From Crocinitomicaceae bacterium (lineage in GTDB: Bacteria > Bacteroidota > Bacteroidia > Flavobacteriales_D > Crocinitomicaceae), in assembly GCA_024643545.1 (NCBI GenBank), contig JAHEMR010000004.1, forward strand, positions 186,001 through 250,000: 64,000 nt of DNA. Direction: 5' to 3'. The position numbers were made by a program, and so were the translations under genes. The notes below the pieces were generated by a model. That model was given only the letters and a program-made list of their open reading frames with translations. It ran no database searches and was not told the origin of the DNA. Shown here in pieces: positions 27,471 to 61,335 of this stretch. Positions within the stretch are counted from its first letter, which is position 1. Each line of letters starts with the position of its first letter.

Positions 27471-27534
27471 TAATGTGCTAATGTGCGAATTAACTAATGT
27501 GCTAATGTGCGAATTAACTAGTGTGCGAATTCGC
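27471..27534. repeat. Octamer-repeat array downstream of bshB1
   Basis: Eight consecutive 8-bp units in register: TAATGTGC, TAATGTGC and GAATTAAC (a 24-bp block) repeated twice, then TAGTGTGC and GAATTCGC. It is part of the array family described at 32837-33036. Two GC-rich short motifs follow (27536-27549 and 27587-27600). Confidence 0.9.
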
Positions 27535-27535
27535 T

Positions 27536-27549
27536 TCCACCTCGGCGGA
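27536..27549. repeat. GC-rich imperfect palindrome (TCC...GGA)
   Basis: TCCACCTCGGCGGA resembles TCCGGCACGGCGGA at 33503-33516 and, in reverse, GCGCCAAGGTGGGG at 33041-33054. All three lie beside octamer arrays and stand out as GC-rich islands in AT-rich spacers. Confidence 0.5.
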
Positions 27550-28127: not shown

Positions 28128-30323
28128 ATGAAATTTTACTTATTAATGATGATCCTTTTCGGGATTTCATCCATTTCAACAGCACAAATAAAGGGTGTTG
28201 TATTGCGGCAAGACTCTACAAAAAATACACCCATTGAAAATGCCAAAATTCGTCTTTCTCATTCGAATCAAGGGGTGTTTTCCAATAAGGAAGGTCAATT
28301 TGAAATCGTACTTCCTAAACAACTTCCAGATACGCTCATCATTAGTGCGATGGGCTACCTGTCGGACTCAATAATCGTGACAAAAAATGATCGCTTCATA
28401 GCCCTTACCATCTTATTGTTTCCTATTTCAACTAAAACAGAGATTGTATATCAAATGAGGAAAAATTCCCATCAAATATCCAAAATGAAAACACTCCACG
28501 TGGAAGAAATTGGTTCAGGTGAATTAAGGAAAGCTGCTTGTTGCAACTTATCAGAGTCTTTTGAAACGAATGCATCTGTAGATGTGAATATTACGGATGC
28601 CGTTTCTGGTGCGAAGAAAATACAAATGATGGGACTTGATGGTGTGTATACGCAAATCCAGATGGAAAATATTCCTTATTTGCGAGGACTCGAAAGCTCC
28701 TTTGGGCTTCAATCCATACCGGGAACGTGGATTGAATCCATTCAAATCACTAAAGGCACGGGAAACGTGGTGAATGGATACGAATCCATGGCAGGATTGG
28801 TGAATTTAGAAATAAAGAAACCGAATGAGATGGAGAAATTCTACTTCAATGCTTACCAAAATCGTTTTGGTCGATCTGAAATCAATGTCAATGGTGGTAG
28901 AAAAATCAATCAAAAATGGAGTACAGGAATTTTAGGACATGCTTCCTCTATGTTTGGAAACATCGATCACAATATGGATGGATTCCGTGATATTCCAATG
29001 GGAGATAATCTCGCTATCATGAATCGCTGGGCTTTTCAAGGAAAGAAAATGGAAGCACAATTTGGTGTGAATGCTTATCAAGACAGAAAATTAGGTGGGC
29101 AAAACACGTATTTCCGAGATAGTCCAGTTGGATATGGTGTGAGTATGAACGCGCGTCACGTAGACCTATACGCAAAAACAGGATTCTTCAGCAAAAAGCC
29201 ACTTAGGTCCTTCGGTGTTGTGTACAACCTAAAATTCCAAGAAATGAGCGGTATATTCGGAAATCGTGCATTCGAAGGAAAAGAAAAACGAGCCTATGTG
29301 AATGCGATTTACGATGACATTCTTGGAACAAGCGACCATAAGATCAAGTTGGGGGCAAGTTTTGTCGGATTGATGATTGAACAAAAAGCCGATCAACTAC
29401 AACAGGTTCGAACGGAAATAGTTCCTGGGATTTTTGGGGAATATAGTTACACGGGCTCTCGTTTAAGCGCAGTTTTGGGAGCGCGCTATGACCAACACCT
29501 CACTTATGGCGGGCAATTCTCGCCAAGGATTCATGCGAAATATGCACTTACACAACGAACTGATTTACGCGTAACAGCCGGAAAAGGATGGCGCGTTCCG
29601 AATTTCATGATCGATAATGTTTCCTTGTTAGCAAATTCGAAAACTTGGATGTCACCAACTGAAATCAAACCGGAAATTTCATGGAATGCAGGCGCATCCT
29701 TGGTGAAAGATTTTACACTTTTCGAAAAAACTGGAAACCTAAGCCTAGACTTCTATCATACTCTTTTCCAAAATCAATTGATTGTCGACCGAGATGCCGC
29801 ATTGGATGCAATTGTCTTTCAAAACCTAACAAACTCATCCTACTCTAATAGTTTTCAAGTGGAATGGTCTTATGCACCAATGAAGAATTTCGACCTTCGT
29901 TTAGCTTACAAACATTTAGATGTGAAGGCATTATATGATGGCGTGATGCGTCAACAAGTCATGATTCCAAAGAACAGAGGATTCATTAATGTAGCTTACC
30001 GAACGCGAAATAAACGCTGGGAATTTGATGCTACTTGTACGGTTTACGGATCATCGCGTCTACCTGTTATTCTTCAATCGTCGGGTATTGTACAGCATGA
30101 TGAGCAAAGTCCAATTTATCCGATGGTGAACGCACAAATCACACATGTTTACAAAAAATGGAATTTTTACGTTGGTGGTGAAAATTTAGCGAACTTTAAA
30201 CAAGCGAATCCGATTATTGATGCGCTGAATCCTTTTGGTTCTCAATTCGATGCAAACCGAGTTTGGGGTCCGATTATGGGATGGAATGTGTATGCGGGTG
30301 TTCGTTATGCGATTAAGGGGTAA
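28128..30323 (+). CDS. TonB-dependent receptor with carboxypeptidase-like N-terminal domain
   Basis: A signal peptide (...SISTAQ) is followed by a CarboxypepD_reg-like domain (about 20-95: FSNKEGQFEIVLP, LIISAMGYL) and a plug (about 120-230: ELRKAACCNLSESFETN, IQITKGTGNVVNGYESMAG). The long barrel ends in GWNVYAGVRYAI. The AACCNLSESFETN stretch is characteristic of a Bacteroidetes receptor group found with metal-related genes. It presumably imports a metal complex or small ligand across the outer membrane using TonB energy. Its stop codon TAA is also the first three bases of an octamer-repeat array. Confidence 0.88.
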   Translation: MKFYLLMMILFGISSISTAQIKGVVLRQDSTKNTPIENAKIRLSHSNQGVFSNKEGQFEIVLPKQLPDTLIISAMGYLSDSIIVTKNDRFIALTILLFPISTKTEIVYQMRKNSHQISKMKTLHVEEIGSGELRKAACCNLSESFETNASVDVNITDAVSGAKKIQMMGLDGVYTQIQMENIPYLRGLESSFGLQSIPGTWIESIQITKGTGNVVNGYESMAGLVNLEIKKPNEMEKFYFNAYQNRFGRSEINVNGGRKINQKWSTGILGHASSMFGNIDHNMDGFRDIPMGDNLAIMNRWAFQGKKMEAQFGVNAYQDRKLGGQNTYFRDSPVGYGVSMNARHVDLYAKTGFFSKKPLRSFGVVYNLKFQEMSGIFGNRAFEGKEKRAYVNAIYDDILGTSDHKIKLGASFVGLMIEQKADQLQQVRTEIVPGIFGEYSYTGSRLSAVLGARYDQHLTYGGQFSPRIHAKYALTQRTDLRVTAGKGWRVPNFMIDNVSLLANSKTWMSPTEIKPEISWNAGASLVKDFTLFEKTGNLSLDFYHTLFQNQLIVDRDAALDAIVFQNLTNSSYSNSFQVEWSYAPMKNFDLRLAYKHLDVKALYDGVMRQQVMIPKNRGFINVAYRTRNKRWEFDATCTVYGSSRLPVILQSSGIVQHDEQSPIYPMVNAQITHVYKKWNFYVGGENLANFKQANPIIDALNPFGSQFDANRVWGPIMGWNVYAGVRYAIKG

Positions 30324-30376
30324 TGTGCTAGTGTACTAGTTTGTTAATGGATCAATATGCAAATGTGCTAGTCTAA
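30321..30376. repeat. Octamer-repeat array starting at the receptor stop codon
   Basis: Seven 8-bp units in register (TAATGTGC, TAGTGTAC, TAGTTTGT, TAATGGAT, CAATATGC, AAATGTGC, TAGTCTAA). The stop codon TAA of the receptor gene is the beginning of unit 1. Confidence 0.85.
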
Positions 30377-30732: not shown

Positions 30733-30792
30733 TAATGTGCTAATGATTTAGTAAACTAATTGTACAACGTGTTCATGTTCATGTTCATGTTT
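30733..30792. repeat. Octamer units followed by a TTCATG hexamer tandem
   Basis: Directly after the HMA stop there are about four to five 8-bp units (TAATGTGC, TAATGATT, TAGTAAAC, TAATTGTA). At 30772-30792 a TTCATG-type hexanucleotide repeats about three and a half times. The rest of the 205-nt spacer to the purF-like gene holds degenerate array-like words and a promoter. Confidence 0.75.
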
Positions 30793-30909
30793 TTTCAATA
30801 TTCCAATTTCTTTTCTCTATTGAAATCACTTTGACCTTAACGTGCACTACAACATTGGCAAATTAGCACTTTAGGTGATTGGTACATGAGCACATTACTA
30901 CATTATACC

Positions 30910-30937: not shown

Positions 30938-32839
30938 ATGAGTGATCCGATAAAACATGAGTGTGGAATAGCTCTTTTAAGGCTGAAAAAACCTTTGGAA
31001 TATTACCTAGAAAAGTACGGTACAGCACTGTATGGCATCAACAAGATGCACCTCCTCATGGAAAAACAACATAATCGTGGTCAAGATGGAGCTGGAATTG
31101 CGAACATTAAATTCGATATGGAACCAGGGAATCGTTATATATCGAGAACGCGTTCCATCAAAAAGAATCCAACCCAAGATATTTTTGATCAAATAAATGC
31201 GAAGTTTCAACAAATTCAACAAGAGAATCCTGCCAATTTAAAAGATGTAGATTACTTGAAGAAAAACGTTGGATTTACGGGTGAATTGTTCCTTGGTCAC
31301 TTGAGATATGGAACTTTCGGAAGAAATTCAATTGAAAGTTGTCATCCATTTTTGCGTCAAAATAACTGGATTACACGAAACCTCGTAGTCGCTGGAAACT
31401 TTAATTTGACCAACGTCGATGAGTTGTTTCAAACACTGATTAATCTTGGACAACATCCAAAAGAAAAAAGTGATACGGTAACAGTTCTAGAGAAAATTGG
31501 TCATTTCCTTGATGTAGAAAATGATGACTTATATGCTCATTATAAATCACTTGGCTATTCTAAAGATCAAATTTACGCGCGTATTGCCAAAGAGGTGAAT
31601 TTGGTTAAAATCTTAAAAAAAGCATCTGAAGTTTGGGATGGCGGATATGCTATGGCAGGCTTACTAGGACATGGTGATGCTTTTGTATTAAGAGATCCAA
31701 ACGGAATTCGTCCAGCATTTTGGTACGAGGATGATGAAATTTGTGTTGTTGCTTCGGAACGACCTGTAATTCAAACAGCCTTCAACTTAACCAGTGATCA
31801 AATTCATGAACTTCAACCCGGTCATGCACTGATTGTGCGTAAAAGCGGAGAAGTGAAAGAAGAGATGATTAATGCACCACGTGAAATTAAAAAATGCTCG
31901 TTTGAACGCATTTATTTCTCTCGCGGATCCGATACCGATATCTACAAAGAACGCAAGGCATTAGGACGATTAATCGTTGATCAAGTGCTAAAAACTGTCG
32001 ATTACGATTTTGATAATAGTGTGTTTTCTTTTATTCCTAATACCGCAGAAGTTTCCTTTTATGGATTGATCAAAGGATTGGAAGAAAATTTGAATCAACA
32101 AAAAATTCAGCAAATACAAGCGCTTGACTCTACAGCTGATTCTGAAAAAATAGAAGAGATTATCAATAGAAGAGCGCGTATTGAAAAAATCGCCATTAAA
32201 GATGCCAAGTTACGTACTTTCATCACTCAAGATGACTCACGAGACGATCTTGTTGCGCATGTATATGACATCACATACGGCAGTGTACGTCCAGGAACGG
32301 ATAACCTCATCGTAATTGACGATAGCATCGTACGTGGGACAACCTTAAAGCAAAGTATTTTACGCATTTTAGATCGTTTATCTCCGAAAAAAATCGTTGT
32401 TGTATCTTCTGCACCTCAAATCCGATACCCAGATTGTTATGGAATTGATATGGCGAAAATGGGCGATTTTATTGCGTTCGAAGCAGCCATTCAATTATTG
32501 CGTGACCGCAAAATGGACCGTGTGATCAAAGAAGTATACGAAAAATGCCTTGAGCAAGTAAACCTTCCGAAAGAACAAGTTCGAAATTTCGTAAAAGAAA
32601 TCTATGCACCTTTTAGCAACGAAGAGATTTCTGCAAAAATTGCTGAATTGTTGACACCTCCTACGATTCAGGCAAAAGTGGAAATCGTTTTTCAAACCGT
32701 AGAAAACCTTCACATTGCTTGTCCAGATCACCTTGGAGATTGGTACTTCACTGGAGATTATCCAACACCTGGCGGAAATAAAGTGGTAAACAAAGCTTTC
32801 ATCAATTGGATGGAAAAGAGGAATGAGCGAGCTTATTAG
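30938..32839 (+). CDS. purF: Amidophosphoribosyltransferase, long Bacteroidetes form
   Basis: PurF makes phosphoribosylamine from PRPP and glutamine, the first step of purine synthesis. The Ntn-type glutaminase nucleophile is expected at Cys9 (HECGIALL) after removal of a short propeptide. EKQHNRGQDGAGIAN, FLGHLRYGTFG and a C-terminal PRPP-binding VIDDSIVRGTTLKQSIL support the family. At 633 residues it is about 130 longer than typical PurF. The segment corresponding to the usual VPDSG motif reads FIPNTAEVSFYG, so this is the divergent long paralogue seen in Bacteroidetes, and enzyme activity is inferred. The stop codon TAG begins the longest octamer array. Confidence 0.85.
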   Translation: MSDPIKHECGIALLRLKKPLEYYLEKYGTALYGINKMHLLMEKQHNRGQDGAGIANIKFDMEPGNRYISRTRSIKKNPTQDIFDQINAKFQQIQQENPANLKDVDYLKKNVGFTGELFLGHLRYGTFGRNSIESCHPFLRQNNWITRNLVVAGNFNLTNVDELFQTLINLGQHPKEKSDTVTVLEKIGHFLDVENDDLYAHYKSLGYSKDQIYARIAKEVNLVKILKKASEVWDGGYAMAGLLGHGDAFVLRDPNGIRPAFWYEDDEICVVASERPVIQTAFNLTSDQIHELQPGHALIVRKSGEVKEEMINAPREIKKCSFERIYFSRGSDTDIYKERKALGRLIVDQVLKTVDYDFDNSVFSFIPNTAEVSFYGLIKGLEENLNQQKIQQIQALDSTADSEKIEEIINRRARIEKIAIKDAKLRTFITQDDSRDDLVAHVYDITYGSVRPGTDNLIVIDDSIVRGTTLKQSILRILDRLSPKKIVVVSSAPQIRYPDCYGIDMAKMGDFIAFEAAIQLLRDRKMDRVIKEVYEKCLEQVNLPKEQVRNFVKEIYAPFSNEEISAKIAELLTPPTIQAKVEIVFQTVENLHIACPDHLGDWYFTGDYPTPGGNKVVNKAFINWMEKRNERAY

Positions 32840-33036
32840 TTTGCTAATGTGCTAGTTATCTATTGTGCTAATGTGCTAGTTATCTAATGTGCTAATGTGC
32901 TAGTTATCTAATGTGCTAGTTTGCTAATGTTCTAATGTGCTAGTGTGCTAGTTATCTAATCGGCTAGTTTGCTAGTTATCTAATGTGCTAGTTTGCTAAT
33001 GTGCTAATGTGCTAGTTTGCTAATGGTTCAATGATC
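32837..33036. repeat. Longest octamer-repeat array (25 units in perfect register)
   Basis: From the TAG stop codon of the purF-like gene, 25 consecutive 8-bp units follow without a single register slip. The commonest are TAATGTGC, TAGTTATC and TAGTTTGC, with variants such as TATTGTGC, TAATGTTC, TAGTGTGC and TAATCGGC. Almost every unit starts with TA and ends with C. Parts show a 24-bp higher-order block (TAATGTGC, TAATGTGC, TAGTTATC). There are no spacers of the CRISPR kind. Confidence 0.95.
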
Positions 33037-33113: not shown

Positions 33114-33468
33114 ATGACTGATTCCAAGAACCCATTATTAAACAAATCATTTGACTTTGCGCTGTTAATTGTGTCGTTTTGTCAAGAGTTACAATCCCAA
33201 AGGAGTTTCAATTGCACATCAACTGTTAAAATCCGGAACGTCCGTTGGTGCAAATATTCGTGAAGCTCAGCACGCAGAATCTAGAGCGGATTTCATTCAT
33301 AAACTGAAAATTGCCTCCAAAGAATGCGAAGAAACGACCTATTGGCTTGAAATCTGTCAAGCAAGTTATTCCATGAATTGTGATGTACTCATTAACGAAT
33401 CGCAACAAATCGGCAAACTACTCAGTCGCATCATCTCAACAGCCAAACGGAATAAATCCCTAAACTAA
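33114..33468 (+). pseudogene. Frameshifted four-helix-bundle (S23/IVP) protein gene
   Basis: The ORF-track entry starting at 33169 is only the second part. An ATG at 33114 opens a frame reading LNKSFDFALLIVSFCQELQSQ, the usual helix-1 region of 23S rRNA-intervening-sequence (S23) four-helix-bundle proteins. The rest (IAHQLLKSGTSVGANIREA, ECEETTYWLEIC) is one frame over. The switch falls at CCCAAA (33196-33201), and removal of one C or A would join them into a normal ~117-residue protein. It is either a pseudogene, a slippage site or a sequencing error. It lies between octamer arrays of opposite orientation. Confidence 0.75.
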
Positions 33469-33479
33469 CCAGACTCCAA

Positions 33480-33590
33480 CTAGACCATTAGCAAATTAGC
33501 ACTCCGGCACGGCGGAAAGTCATTAGCACATTACACCATTAGCAAATTGGACGATTTGCACATTAGGTCATTAATACATTATCCCTATTT
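33480..33590. repeat. Octamer-type array in inverted orientation with GC-rich palindrome
   Basis: Read on the minus strand this contains units such as TAATGTAT, TAATGACC, TAATGTGC, CAATTTGC, TAATGGTG and TAATTTGC. The GC-rich palindrome TCCGGCACGGCGGA (33503-33516) is embedded between two of them. The orientation is opposite to the array at 32837-33036, so the S23/IVP remnant is bracketed by inverted arrays. Confidence 0.8.
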
Positions 33591-33602
33591 TTACAAAAAA
33601 AA

Positions 33603-33610
33603 TAAATTTG
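33603..33610 (+). promoter_or_regulatory. Possible -7 box TAAATTTG overlapping the waaA start
   Basis: This is a perfect TAnnTTTG whose last three bases are the TTG taken as start codon. A near match, TATTTTTA, lies about 15 nt further upstream and would leave room for a leader. Confidence 0.35.
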
Positions 33611-34807
33611 TCACTGATCTACTCCTTTTTTATTCAATGCTATGGCGTTTTGATTCATGTAGTTTCATGGTTCAATCCAAAGGCGAAGTCTTGGGTGGTG
33701 GGACGACAACAATGGGATGAAAAATTACGGACACAAATCCCGAAGAATCGAAAGGTGATATGGTTTCATTGTGCGTCGCTTGGGGAGTTCGACCAAGGAT
33801 TGCCATTGATGAAGTCCCTGAAGGAAGTGGATCCAAATTTATTTTTATTGGTGAGTTTCTTCTCTCCTTCTGGAATGGAACATTACCAAAAACGCGAGGC
33901 GATCGTTGATGCAGCTTGCTACCTCCCTTTGGATACACTTCAAAACGCTCGAACTTTTGTCCAAATCGTACAACCCGAAAAAGCCATATTTGTAAAGTAT
34001 GAATTCTGGCCGAATTTCCTACGAGCTTTAGATGAAATGACTATTGAAACGGTTGCTGTATCAGCTATTTTTCGTCCGACACAACTTTATTTTCGTTGGT
34101 ACGGTGCCTTTTTTAGAAGAGCATTGAAACGGATCCATCATTTTGATGTGCAAAACGAAGAAAGTGCTGAACTTTTGAAATCTATTGGCATTCAACAAAG
34201 CACTGTTTCCGGTGACATGCGTTACAAGCGAGTGGTTCAAGCAAAGGAAATGGCCATGGAGCATTCGAATGAACTTTTGGCGACCTTTACTACTGGAACG
34301 ACTACACTCATCATTGGAAGTTCATGGCAAAAAGAAGAAGGTATTGTTCGTGAGGCTCTCTCGGAGCTTGGAGCAACTAAACTGATCATAGCGCCACACG
34401 ATGTAAGTGAGCAACATATTTCATCCATTCAGACACAATTCCCAAATGCTTTGCGCTACACCCAGTTAACTTTTCCAAATGACGAAAGGAAACTATTCGA
34501 TTCACAAATTCTCATCATCGATTGCATTGGTCAATTAAGTTTGGCTTACCGCTACGCAACAATTGCTTTCATTGGTGGTGGCTTTACGGGAAATCTTCAT
34601 AATATTCTTGAACCTGCCGTTTACGGACTTCCGCTCCTGTTTGGTCCGAAACATCGAAAATTCCCAGAAGCAAAATTATTTCTTCAAAAAGGCTTTGCCT
34701 TAGAAGTAACAAATCCAAAAGATTTCTCTCAAGCCTTTAATGCATTACTTTCGAAGGTTACATCGCTTCGTCCGGAAATGGAAAAGTTTGTGCAAGCACA
34801 AGCGTGA
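33608..34807 (+). CDS. waaA: 3-deoxy-D-manno-octulosonic acid (Kdo) transferase
   Basis: WaaA/KdtA attaches Kdo to lipid A on the cytoplasmic side of the inner membrane. FNPKAKSWVVGRQQW, the catalytic-Glu motif CASLGEFDQG, VSFFSPSGMEHY, AIFVKYEFWPNFL, SGDMRYKRV and GGGFTGNLHNILEP all match the family, and the length is normal. No in-frame ATG exists near the start; the TTG at 33608 gives MSLIYSFF and fits the expected N-terminal length. However, this TTG also forms the end of a -7-like box, so the true start is uncertain. The octamer array follows right after the stop. Confidence 0.92.
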   Translation: MSLIYSFFIQCYGVLIHVVSWFNPKAKSWVVGRQQWDEKLRTQIPKNRKVIWFHCASLGEFDQGLPLMKSLKEVDPNLFLLVSFFSPSGMEHYQKREAIVDAACYLPLDTLQNARTFVQIVQPEKAIFVKYEFWPNFLRALDEMTIETVAVSAIFRPTQLYFRWYGAFFRRALKRIHHFDVQNEESAELLKSIGIQQSTVSGDMRYKRVVQAKEMAMEHSNELLATFTTGTTTLIIGSSWQKEEGIVREALSELGATKLIIAPHDVSEQHISSIQTQFPNALRYTQLTFPNDERKLFDSQILIIDCIGQLSLAYRYATIAFIGGGFTGNLHNILEPAVYGLPLLFGPKHRKFPEAKLFLQKGFALEVTNPKDFSQAFNALLSKVTSLRPEMEKFVQAQA

Positions 34808-34927
34808 TTGGTTACTAAAGTGCTAATGGACTAATGTGCTAATGTGCTCGTTTTCTCGTTTACAAGTTATTATATCCTTTGACGAAAGGTCAATAGCAAA
34901 CTTGCACATTGATTAATGAGCAAGTTA
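34808..34927. repeat. Octamer-repeat arrays between waaA and the convergent outer-membrane gene
   Basis: After the waaA stop, eight units in register run to 34871 (TTGGTTAC, TAAAGTGC, TAATGGAC, TAATGTGC twice, TCGTTTTC, TCGTTTAC, AAGTTATT). From the other side, the TAA stop of the minus-strand gene at 34925 opens minus-strand units TAACTTGC, TCATTAAT, CAATGTGC and AAGTTTGC. No conventional terminator was found between these convergent genes. Confidence 0.85.
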
Positions 34928-35686
34928 ATTATAATAATAATCCTTCGGCTTCTTCGAGTAAAAAGGGATGTACCAACCAACGCGTATTCCTGTCTGAAGA
35001 TCGAGGCGCATGGCAGTGGACACGGGAATGTCCGGTTGGTCGTAGTTGATGGTTCGACGATTATACGTCAGACCTTGTTGGCAGTAAATTCCTGCATAAA
35101 AATTGAGCGGTCCACCATTATTAAGGAAAGAATAACCTATGAATTGGTGAAAATTAATGCCGGTAGTCATTCGGTCATAACCACGTTTATAGGTTAATTC
35201 GATTTGTGGAACCACTTGATCGTTGGTTTCAATGCGTAAATGATGCAACAAGTATCCTGCTCCTGCGTGAACAAGGATTCCTGAATTGGCATTTTTCTTA
35301 CCCGTTGGAAATAAACGTCCAATGCTGAAGTTTGCGTTGAAGCCACGTGGATAAACAAGAACTGTTGCCTTCGTGCCATTAACATCTGTAATATTTCCCT
35401 TGTCATCTAATAGGTGATCGAAGATTCCACTCATTTTCACTTGATTTCCAAAAATAAAATTGGCATCTACACCAAAATACCATTGGCTTTGTAATTTATA
35501 TCCGGCGGAAAATCCCAGGTTATTCAAGTATCCGTAGCGTGCCAATAAATCTCCTCCAGGTAGGTTTCCTCCCCAATGTATTCCAACTAAAGGAGTACTG
35601 ATGGATTCATTTTTTACTTCACCTTGCGCGTTTGCGAAAAAACGAAGCGAAAACATAAGCAAAAAAAGAAATGATCGAAGTTCCAT
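34925..35686 (-). CDS. Predicted outer-membrane protein at the end of the wza-wzc unit
   Basis: A signal peptide (...RFFANAQ) is followed by a beta-barrel-like pattern: SAGYKLQSQWYFGVDANFIFG, HAGAGYLLHHLRIE and NFYAGIYCQQGLTYN. This resembles Bacteroidetes porin-like or PorT-like barrels, but the ligand is unknown. It begins 6 nt after the wzc-like stop, so it is probably co-expressed with the capsule export genes and could be an outer-membrane component of that system. That role is inference from position. Its stop codon merges with an octamer array. Confidence 0.65.
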   Translation of the reverse strand: MELRSFLFLLMFSLRFFANAQGEVKNESISTPLVGIHWGGNLPGGDLLARYGYLNNLGFSAGYKLQSQWYFGVDANFIFGNQVKMSGIFDHLLDDKGNITDVNGTKATVLVYPRGFNANFSIGRLFPTGKKNANSGILVHAGAGYLLHHLRIETNDQVVPQIELTYKRGYDRMTTGINFHQFIGYSFLNNGGPLNFYAGIYCQQGLTYNRRTINYDQPDIPVSTAMRLDLQTGIRVGWYIPFYSKKPKDYYYN

Positions 35687-35692
35687 GAGTGT

Positions 35693-38185
35693 TTATTTCT
35701 TTTTCAGAAAAATGCGCAAAAAGGGAAAATATCGCTCGATGCGATTTCTCCATTTACGCTTATTTTTAGATGGTTTATCAAAATACTCATTTCCGCTAGA
35801 TCCATAACCGTAGCCATAGCCATATCCGTAGCCGTAACCATATCCGTAGCCATAGCCAGCTCCATAACCATAGCCATAACCATAACCTTTCCCAGTAAGA
35901 TCTGTAGCGTTCACTAAAACGGCCATGTTAGGCATTTTCTTTTCGTGATAAAGACTTGCTGGTATACTTAACATTCTACGGTCTAAGTGTTCAGCTCTTG
36001 CAACATAAACGACAATATCTGAATATTTATGAACATGTAAAGAATCTGCAACCAAAGCTACCGGGGCAGTGTCTAGGATAACATAATCATACTGAGATTT
36101 TGCAATTTCAATTAACTCTGCCAAACGTGGTCTTAGTAATAATTCAGATGGATTCGGAGGGATATCACCGGAAATAATGTAATCTAAATTCTGATTTCCT
36201 TGATCATGAATGACGATATCATCAAACGTTAAATCTTCTTTTACGATATAATTTGTTACCCCGACAGTTTTAACAACATCCACATATCGCGCAATTTTCG
36301 GAGCACGCAAATCCAAGCCTATCACAACAACTTTCTTATCACTATGCGAAAGCGTATGCCCAATATTGATGGAAATAAATGTCTTACCCTCACCTGCAAT
36401 AGAAGAGGTTACCATAATAACTTTCGAGCCCTTTTTATCATTATCTAATAAAAAAGTTAAGTTTGTTCGAATCATTCGGAATGCTTCAGCAATATGTGTT
36501 CGCGCATTTTTTGTAGCCACAATCGTTCGTCCACTTTCATCCCCTTTAGGAACCTCTCCAATTGCTGGGATTTTAAATTTGATTAAATCGTGAAGGCCAT
36601 GAACTTTACTGTCCAATAAATATTTTAGGTAAATGATACCAAATGGCACTAAAAGTCCAATTACAACTGCAAAAATGTAGTATTTCTTACGGTTTGGCTC
36701 TGTAGGTAAACCATTGCTACTTGCCTCATAGATGATTTTTGTATTTCCAATAGAGGAAGCTGTCTTTATTTCATTTTCCTCACGTTTTTGCAACAAGAAA
36801 ATATACAATGTTTCTTTGATTTCTTGTTGTCGTTCTATATTCCTAAACTCACGTTCGTAACCAGGAACTGAAGCAATTTTATCTTTATAACGGTTATCGA
36901 CTACATTTAATGAATTCAAGGTAATTTTCAAACGAGATTTATTCGATTTCAACCCTTCATCAATGGAATGGCGTAAACCAATTAGTTGATCATCAATTTT
37001 TTGAACGGTTGGATTTTTAATACTAGAATTCTTCATTAAGCGTTGACGATCCAACAAGAGTTTATTGTACTGAGTAGTCATCGCCACGATAGAACCGTCT
37101 TCAAAGCCGAGATTCGATGGCAATAATTCCGTATAATCTTGGTGCTTCTGAAGGTATTCTTGCAGGTAATCATTCAAACTTAATTGTACAGAAGTCTGAA
37201 TAATACTCTCCTCTGTGGCACTTTGTTTGGCAACAAATTCCCCACCTTGAGTTGCTACATCAACAATATTGTGTTTTGTTTTAAATGCTTCTACGTCCTT
37301 TTCTACAGCTGATAATTCTTCAGTAATGTAGGCCATTCTGTCATTTATAAAAGCACTTGTATTTCGGGCGATTTCATTTTTATCATAAATGCTTTGAGCT
37401 TCATGCTCTGTAATGAGGGCAGAGATAATGTCATTATTTTTCTCAATTACCGGCCCGTCGTATGAAATAGAAATTAAATCTGAAAACTTATCAACGCGTT
37501 CTAAGATAATATCAGCACCCAATTTTGATGTGGCATCTTTGATTGGCTCTAGATAGACGATGTATTCATTTCCTATTGTTGATGCATTAAAATTGGTGTT
37601 TTTGACAAATGATATTAGTCCAATTTTAGTCGCTATCGGAGTGTTAAATGTATGTGAACCTAAATATGTGCTTTCATCAATGTGAAGTTCAAATCGCATT
37701 GACGAAATTACTTTTAATTGAAAACTAGCACTTTTGTCAAAAAGTAAGCTGTCATTTCTAACAGACTCTAATGTGAAAGGTGTGTTTTTGTATAACTCTG
37801 ATTTTTTAATGCCAGCATTTTGTCCAACCAATAAATACCTGCGATTTAAATTAAGTTTTCTAACAACACTATTCAGAATTGCCGGTGTTTTAAATAATGC
37901 GATTTCATTCTCTAATTTCGTGCTTTTTTCAGTTAATCCAAGGTCTTGAAATGCTGAAAGTCCTTTTAATACATCGTCTTCTTGATTCTGTATTAAAATG
38001 GTTGCTGTTGATTTATAAATTGGTGTAGAATACCTCAATAAAGTGTAGGCAACAAAAACAGAAATGAATACTCCCACAACGAACCACAACCAATAATGTA
38101 GGTAACGATCTATAAGTTCCCGTACATTTATCTTTGGCTCAGGAGCGTCTTGTTGATCCTGCTTTTGGTTATAATCCTCTTGCAT
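35693..38185 (-). CDS. Wzc-like polysaccharide co-polymerase / tyrosine autokinase
   Basis: This inner-membrane protein controls polysaccharide chain length and export. An N-terminal Wzz segment has a TM near residues 32-52 and a second TM lies near 500 (YIFAVVIGLLVPFGIIYL). Between them is a long periplasmic coiled coil. The C-terminal BY-kinase domain has Walker A SIAGEGKTFISIN, Walker A' VVVIGLDLRAP and Walker B YDYVILDTAPV. The Tyr cluster is extreme: nine Tyr-Gly pairs, an Ala-Gly, then four more Tyr-Gly pairs. After it comes a basic tail (KNKRKWRNR). Its ATG shares a base with the wza-like stop. Confidence 0.92.
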   Translation of the reverse strand: MQEDYNQKQDQQDAPEPKINVRELIDRYLHYWLWFVVGVFISVFVAYTLLRYSTPIYKSTATILIQNQEDDVLKGLSAFQDLGLTEKSTKLENEIALFKTPAILNSVVRKLNLNRRYLLVGQNAGIKKSELYKNTPFTLESVRNDSLLFDKSASFQLKVISSMRFELHIDESTYLGSHTFNTPIATKIGLISFVKNTNFNASTIGNEYIVYLEPIKDATSKLGADIILERVDKFSDLISISYDGPVIEKNNDIISALITEHEAQSIYDKNEIARNTSAFINDRMAYITEELSAVEKDVEAFKTKHNIVDVATQGGEFVAKQSATEESIIQTSVQLSLNDYLQEYLQKHQDYTELLPSNLGFEDGSIVAMTTQYNKLLLDRQRLMKNSSIKNPTVQKIDDQLIGLRHSIDEGLKSNKSRLKITLNSLNVVDNRYKDKIASVPGYEREFRNIERQQEIKETLYIFLLQKREENEIKTASSIGNTKIIYEASSNGLPTEPNRKKYYIFAVVIGLLVPFGIIYLKYLLDSKVHGLHDLIKFKIPAIGEVPKGDESGRTIVATKNARTHIAEAFRMIRTNLTFLLDNDKKGSKVIMVTSSIAGEGKTFISINIGHTLSHSDKKVVVIGLDLRAPKIARYVDVVKTVGVTNYIVKEDLTFDDIVIHDQGNQNLDYIISGDIPPNPSELLLRPRLAELIEIAKSQYDYVILDTAPVALVADSLHVHKYSDIVVYVARAEHLDRRMLSIPASLYHEKKMPNMAVLVNATDLTGKGYGYGYGYGAGYGYGYGYGYGYGYGYGYGSSGNEYFDKPSKNKRKWRNRIERYFPFLRIFLKKK
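35804..35887. repeat. Hexanucleotide tract encoding the Tyr-Gly tail
   Basis: An 84-bp in-frame tract of degenerate 6-bp units (Tyr codon plus Gly codon) encodes 13 Tyr, interrupted once by an Ala codon. Tyr and Gly codons alternate between synonyms, so it is not a perfect microsatellite, but unit gain or loss would keep the frame. Confidence 0.9.
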
Positions 38186-45984: not shown

Positions 45985-46064
45985 TAATGTGCTAATTATT
46001 CAATGTGCTAATTATTCAATGTGCTAATGTGCTAATGATTCAATGTGCTAATGTGCTAATGGTT
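45985..46064. repeat. Octamer-repeat array inside the polysaccharide locus
   Basis: Ten 8-bp units in register (TAATGTGC, TAATTATT, CAATGTGC, TAATTATT, CAATGTGC, TAATGTGC, TAATGATT, CAATGTGC, TAATGTGC, TAATGGTT). It fills most of the gap between two minus-strand genes and touches the start side of the carbamoyltransferase gene. Confidence 0.9.
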
Positions 46065-61283: not shown

Positions 61284-61335
61284 TTGTTTGTTTGCTAATG
61301 ACCCAATTTGCTAATTGGGGCAAGTTCTCGAAATA
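61284..61335. repeat. Octamer-type units and hairpin between wzm-like and wzt-like genes
   Basis: The 52-nt spacer has about four units of the octamer family (TTGTTTGC, TAATGACC, CAATTTGC, TAATTGGG). A 7-bp inverted repeat CCCAATT/AATTGGG (61302-61319) forms a small hairpin just upstream of the wzt-like start. Confidence 0.55.

Follow-up and report, generated by a model that had tools for sequence, protein, structure and literature searches.

Octamer arrays in a Crocinitomicaceae genome as the probable arms of a small mobile element built around an IVP gene

What are the arrays of 8-bp units that fill several intergenic spacers of a Crocinitomicaceae genome, and with what, if anything, do they travel? 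The window examined here is the whole analysed stretch of 64,000 nucleotides (C14:186001-250000) from a genome of 2.75 Mb in 38 contigs. At 32837-33036 on the plus strand, exactly 25 contiguous octamers (TAATGTGC, TAGTTATC, TAGTTTGC and variants) stand in register, and the first of them takes in the stop codon of a GATase/purF-like gene lying upstream. The initial annotation had described this run from the purF-like stop codon, and it is confirmed: Tandem Repeats Finder gives 0% indels, with higher-order periods of 24 bp (87% matches) and 72 bp (91% matches). The window contains 23 copies of the word TAATGTGC, where 2.1 would be expected, and none of 100 shuffles reached that count. A CRISPR array requires direct repeats with unique spacers and was rejected, because the octamers are contiguous and have no spacers. 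Since 23 of the 25 units begin with TAA or TAG, a selected purpose of providing a stop codon in every frame also suggested itself; it was not adopted, as the inverted arms described below lack any such signal in the other orientation, and 5-, 10- and 11-bp periods are as rare as those of 6 and 9 bp.

About 80 bp past this array begins a gene (33114-33468, plus strand) for a TIGR02436/PF05635 four-helix-bundle protein, the "23S rRNA intervening sequence protein" (IVP). The predicted protein scores above the curated cut-off of TIGR02436 (80 bits versus 24) and above that of PF05635 (63.9 bits versus 33.8; E 3.2e-17), and its nearest solved structure is PDB 2rld (E 2e-20); XCC0516 of Xanthomonas campestris ATCC 33913 is another IVP of solved structure. 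Its reading frame is not intact: there is a frameshift near the N-terminus, whereas the orthologue at the orthologous place in the relative G015 reads through. The gene is followed at 33480-33590, on the minus strand, by octamers inverted with respect to the left arm (GCACATTA words); the initial annotation had listed this array as a related one, and it proves to have the opposite orientation and to be broken by a GC-rich palindrome at 33503-33516. The segment 32837-33590 is a TAATGTGC element made up of an array, a broken IVP gene and a second array in inverted orientation. With this gene and an inverted counterpart beyond it, the array at 32837-33036 is to be read as one arm of an element. 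As RNA, the element is predicted to form a single long hairpin whose loop holds the gene (-198 kcal/mol, z -3.96). PF05635 has one other match in this genome (G000), an array-less copy on C6.

IVP genes occur in the intervening sequences (IVS) of bacterial 23S rRNA, as in Leptospira and Coxiella, which carry an S23/IVP ORF and complementary termini that form a long stem, and whose sporadic distribution suggests horizontal spread; the proteins themselves are reported to lack a known function (PMC4990558). The window element has the same protein family and likewise encloses the IVP ORF between complementary termini. It differs in lying outside 16S/23S rRNA and between protein genes: an Rfam search of the window found no rRNA and no match to any Rfam family, and the element sits between GATase and kdtA. 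It differs further in that its stems are tandem arrays, those of such elements having 7- or 8-bp units, and in that IVP-less derivatives occur, whereas tandem arms are not part of the rRNA IVS described in PMC4990558. The rRNA IVS are cut out by RNase III, a possibility considered below for the present element. A homologous four-helix-bundle family is found in Avd of diversity-generating retroelements (PMC10053308), but no reverse transcriptase was found in the window genome and the window ORF falls below the threshold of the Avd model.

The other arrays of the window that had been listed initially all exist, with some changes of layout. The one given as 34808-34927 is not a single array but a plus half (34808-34870), downstream of kdtA, followed by a decayed minus half (34888-34927); this inverted pair has no IVP gene and is well preserved in G015. 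A second IVP-less pair is formed by the plus half at 30733-30765 and a previously missed minus half at about 30851-30905, which ends just 5' of a TAnnTTTG-like promoter. The plus-strand array at 27471-27534 has lost its minus partner here, though G015 and G002 retain it at the orthologous position, and that at 30321-30376 (plus strand) begins at the stop codon of a TonB-receptor gene, is longer in G015 and is absent in G002. Two further plus-strand arrays are a single one of 16/24-bp blocks at 45985-46064 and one at 61284-61335, inserted between wzm and wzt. Most arrays of the window genome have no adjoining IVP gene. GC-rich palindromes (TCCGCCGCGGCGGA) are nested in octamer arrays in the window (27536-27549 and 33503-33516) and in spacers of G015 (L260) and G002 (L240, L241, L266); G002 also has TCCCGA..TCGGGA palindromes, and the nested palindromes there are part of higher-order repeats of ~60 bp. 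An 18-bp tandem repeat (CCATATCCGTAGCCATAG) at 35795-35884 lies in a coding region and is unrelated to the octamers.

At the scale of the genome, for which our statements come from pattern searches and sampled stretches, the words are clustered: of the 34 places where GCTAATGTGCTAAT matches with one mismatch or none, 21 fall in a ~50-kb region overlapping the window. An excess of 8-bp periodicity in spacers, which had been proposed as a check, is present but modest (autocorrelation of 0.292 at lag 8, versus 0.277 at lag 7 and 0.283 at lag 9, in a 439-kb sample partly chosen for arrays).

We consider it probable that the octamer arrays are the arms, or the surviving arms, of a small IVS-like mobile element, whose movement we infer. 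Such an element would consist of an array, an IVP gene and an inverted array, and gene-less inverted pairs and single arrays may be non-autonomous copies or relics, as their layout and one decayed allele (L362) suggest. The units would multiply in blocks of 8 or 24 bp through slippage or unequal exchange. Growth by block slippage had been put forward in the initial annotation and fits the 24/72-bp periods and the differences in unit number between relatives; what that account had missed is the frameshifted IVP gene and its inverted partner. The match between arms might be maintained by arm-to-arm copying through the hairpin, either by quasipalindrome template switching or by gene conversion. 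The IVP protein may recognise its own arms and aid the movement of the element, and the transcript would be expected to fold as a long hairpin, like the rRNA intervening sequences.

To see whether the arrangement could be due to chance, IVP genes were gathered irrespective of arrays from two sources, the best-scoring 80 named loci of a genome collection and a set of 60 relatives. They amounted to 161 distinct genes for which both flanks were available, or 322 flanks of at most 350 bp, in which an array score of at least 14, a threshold of our own choice, was counted. Arrays were present in 120 of the 322 flanks (37%), with a period of 7 or 8 bp in 117 of the 120, as compared with none of 40 flanks of ParE toxin genes in the same 60-genome set, a small control of 20 loci (Fisher p 4e-8), and 89 of 2336 windows (4%) elsewhere in the loci (Fisher p 3e-63). 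The left and right periods agree, with 33 pairs of 7/7, 13 of 8/8 and 3 mixed (p 5e-9). In 47 of 161 loci the left arm scores at least 34 against the reverse complement of its own right arm; with GC-matched other loci in place of the partner, the same inverted match was obtained in 7 of 966 (p 2e-35). Arm polarity is common across phyla, G exceeding C before the gene at 49 of 61 arms and C exceeding G after it at 43 of 56. Loci with clear arms come from at least 10 phyla overall, including Bacteroidota, Pseudomonadota, Bacillota, Planctomycetota, Verrucomicrobiota, Acidobacteriota, Nitrospirota, Chloroflexota, Cyanobacteriota and Balneolota, and from one archaeon. The "strict octamer grammar" that had been proposed for the window is a single instance of a broader rule, by which arrays at IVP genes have units of 7 or 8 bp.

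The association has exceptions. A clear array or clear inverted arms accompany 44 of 78 named IVP genes, and neither was seen at the remaining 34 (about 44%). At some loci the arms are in direct orientation, with an own direct alignment of at least 34 in 20 of 161 (L150 and L351 are instances). In one Thiodictyon genome (L335) the IVP gene lies between inverted arrays with a period of 6 bp rather than 7 or 8 bp. A second, apparently conserved IVP copy of the present genus is without arrays (L029, L084, L245, L247), so that some IVPs are not array-borne.

These figures bear on whether the arrays could be neutral satellites, produced by slippage in any spacer that tolerates them, with the IVP gene present by coincidence. 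The clear 24/72-bp blocks and the differences in unit number between species are what slippage would give, and in many genomes heptanucleotides outnumber other long repeats, for which a reason in the polymerase footprint has been proposed (Mrazek 2007, as reported in PMC4679880). Slippage leaves unexplained, however, why arrays are located at IVP genes, why left and right arms match in word and period with a fixed polarity, and why gene and arms are jointly absent at the empty sites discussed below, and we regard this explanation as unlikely.

If the arrays belong to an element, they should also follow its gene. The IVPs with TAATGTGC arrays (the window copy in G000 and those of G002 and G015) are mutually closest, at 78-95% identity; several of their next relatives have period-8 arrays of different words, and other IVPs in the G002 and G015 genomes have 7-bp arrays, such as those of TAGTGAC and CACTGAG. 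When array period is placed on the IVP tree, 15 changes are needed, versus a mean of 21.4 and a minimum of 16 in shuffles (n=200); this fit is in part simple co-inheritance, as an element predicts. Among 37 genomes of the genus, TAATGTGC-type arrays occur in 4, all 4 of which have IVP genes, whereas IVP genes occur in 11 of the 37 (p 0.005). The arrays track the gene lineage and not the genome.

Orthologous junctions were also compared. The wzm-wzt spacer, which holds 52 bp of octamers in the window, is 3 bp long (TAG-TAC-ATG) in the relative G022. Array-less relatives have GATase and kdtA in a tail-to-tail arrangement and nearly abutting. In the window and in G015 this junction is occupied by the IVP element, and kdtA lies the other way round, flanked by arrays that are oppositely oriented. 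The TAATGTGC IVP of G002 is at another place, upstream of wzm. The comparison of array length among relatives that had been proposed at the outset bears out a difference in unit number: one orthologous site has 25 octamers in the window, about 9 in G015 and about 3-4 in G002. In these comparisons the arrays are extra DNA lodged at gene boundaries. The kdtA inversion (33600-34930 in the window, and in G015) is seen relative to other members of the genus (L266/L241, L278-L283), and its position suggests that it may have arisen by recombination between the inverted arrays.

Similar contrasts are found between named cyanobacterial plasmids. Picosynechococcus PCC 7002 reads cas10-TAA-12 bp-ATG-cmr3, and PCC 7003 has a complete element at that junction. 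At TraM|hyp, Nostoc C057 plasmids are empty, Nostoc C052 and N. edaphicum are filled, and Nostoc ATCC 53789 has arms without an IVP gene; at nrdB|nrdA, Calothrix NIES-4105 is empty and N. edaphicum filled. Dolichospermum UHCC 0315A lacks the Anabaena 90 element at cas6|cas4, but has another palindromic insert there. Gene and both arms are present or absent together between related plasmids, the element being gained or lost as a unit. Neither a target-site duplication nor a fixed target was seen at the compared sites, and part of the earlier spacer has been exchanged there; spacer replacement or deletion could therefore account for some of the contrast between empty and filled sites. The elements at cas6|cas4 and cas10|cmr3 lie inside CRISPR-cas operons of cyanobacterial plasmids (L352, L354, L351) and are absent there in close relatives; in Anabaena 90 an arm seemingly runs into the 5' end of cas4.

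The same comparisons weigh on a regulatory reading, in which the arrays would be multivalent RNA or DNA sites through which a host regulator or the IVP protein controls neighbouring genes. Arrays do sit just past stop codons and just ahead of TAnnTTTG-like promoters, and repeat-binding proteins have been proposed for the TAACTGA repeats by MacGregor (PMC4679880). Against this, the neighbouring genes are unrelated, sister species lack arrays at the corresponding positions, and no Rfam family is matched; such a function therefore strikes us as very improbable, and we retain the mobile element as the preferred reading.

How such an element would move admits of two narrower versions. In the first, it would act as an RNA-level intervening sequence, its hairpin excised by RNase III so that the insertion is silent, with RNA-borne movement. 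The occurrence of the same protein family within complementary termini, as in the rRNA IVS cut by RNase III (PMC4990558), is in line with this version, as are the long predicted hairpin of the window element and the insertions between operon genes (cas6|cas4, cas10|cmr3, nrdB|nrdA). The expected G.U asymmetry is absent, however: mismatches of the G.U type between arms are not in excess over those of the A.C type (91 versus 78, p 0.36). Nor do sense and antisense duplex energies of the array arms differ significantly (26 versus 23 loci, p 0.26); a difference over whole flanks (111 versus 50) was discounted, since it disappears when only array arms are considered. With neither a G.U excess nor a sense/antisense difference, an RNA-level role is not favoured over a DNA-level one, and homogenisation at the DNA level accounts for the matching arms no less well than RNA pairing. 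PF00078 (RVT_1) has no match in the four TAATGTGC genomes (G000, G002, G015 and G032, the last only 66% complete), and, since none was found, a resident reverse transcriptase would be unnecessary; as an obligatory partner it was rejected for the TAATGTGC lineage. With no rRNA in the window either, we hold the RNA-level version to be possible but doubtful.

In the second version, a Y1 (HUH) transposase encoded elsewhere would move the hairpin arms as single-stranded DNA, with the element as its passenger, much as in REPIN/RAYT systems. REP/REPIN-RAYT sequences are likewise dispersed intergenic inverted repeats in which non-coding copies outnumber gene-bearing ones, but the IVP is a four-helix bundle with no HUH motif, and the arms here are tandem arrays, not single palindromes. 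In the genus (G000-G036), Y1_Tnp accompanies IVP in 9 of 11 genomes, versus 4 of 26 genomes without it (p 2e-4), and hairpin ends with no target-site duplication would suit such a transposase. Genome size and mobile-element load confound this correlation, however, and RVT_1 correlates too (p 0.006); the sole Y1_Tnp match in G000 is weak, contains a stop and lies unlinked on another contig, and the sites show no fixed target motif. We therefore think it rather unlikely that the element, which we continue to regard as mobile, is a Y1 passenger.

Heptanucleotide repeats of cyanobacteria, the STRRs, were reportedly described by Mazel in 1990. Tandem heptamers have been recorded in cyanobacteria, Beggiatoaceae, Xanthomonas and a few Bacteroidetes, among them TAACTGA repeats (MacGregor 2015; PMC4679880) and GGGNATC repeats (Rehm 2015; PMC4692102). 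Like the window arrays they are contiguous short tandem words with variants, mostly intergenic and, across distant phyla, sporadic, and cyanobacterial IVP arms bear such words (GGGAACAG, TAGGGAG). They differ in unit length, that of the window being 8 bp, although 7-bp units adjoin other IVP genes of the same genus. A known repeat family of another unit length, which the initial annotation had allowed for, is thus on record, but without a link to IVP: in their available text the two reports mention neither an IVP gene nor inverted pairs on either side of a gene, and describe no empty or filled sites (PMC4679880, PMC4692102), and the 2015 TAACTGA paper finds no transfer mechanism evident (PMC4679880). 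IVP genes have been seen in cas loci (PMC3936711). We found no publication linking tandem arrays to IVP in a literature that included few subscription papers or preprints, and priority is not claimed; as far as we found, the picture of an array-IVP element is apparently undescribed, the 7-bp arrays themselves being known.

Taking the phyla together, we lean towards the view that many bacterial and archaeal intergenic arrays of 7-8 bp, including cyanobacterial STRRs, TAACTGA and similar heptamers, and the octamers of Bacteroidota, derive, as arms or relics, from a single widespread class of mobile elements that have an IVP gene and no other, and in which the IVP lineage sets the period and the word. 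The link between arrays and IVP would give the long-reported arrays a carrier and the IVP protein a likely role. IVP genes in cas operons may be read as insertions, related plasmids being without them at the same place. Each IVP lineage, with a word and a period of its own, would offer a testable system.
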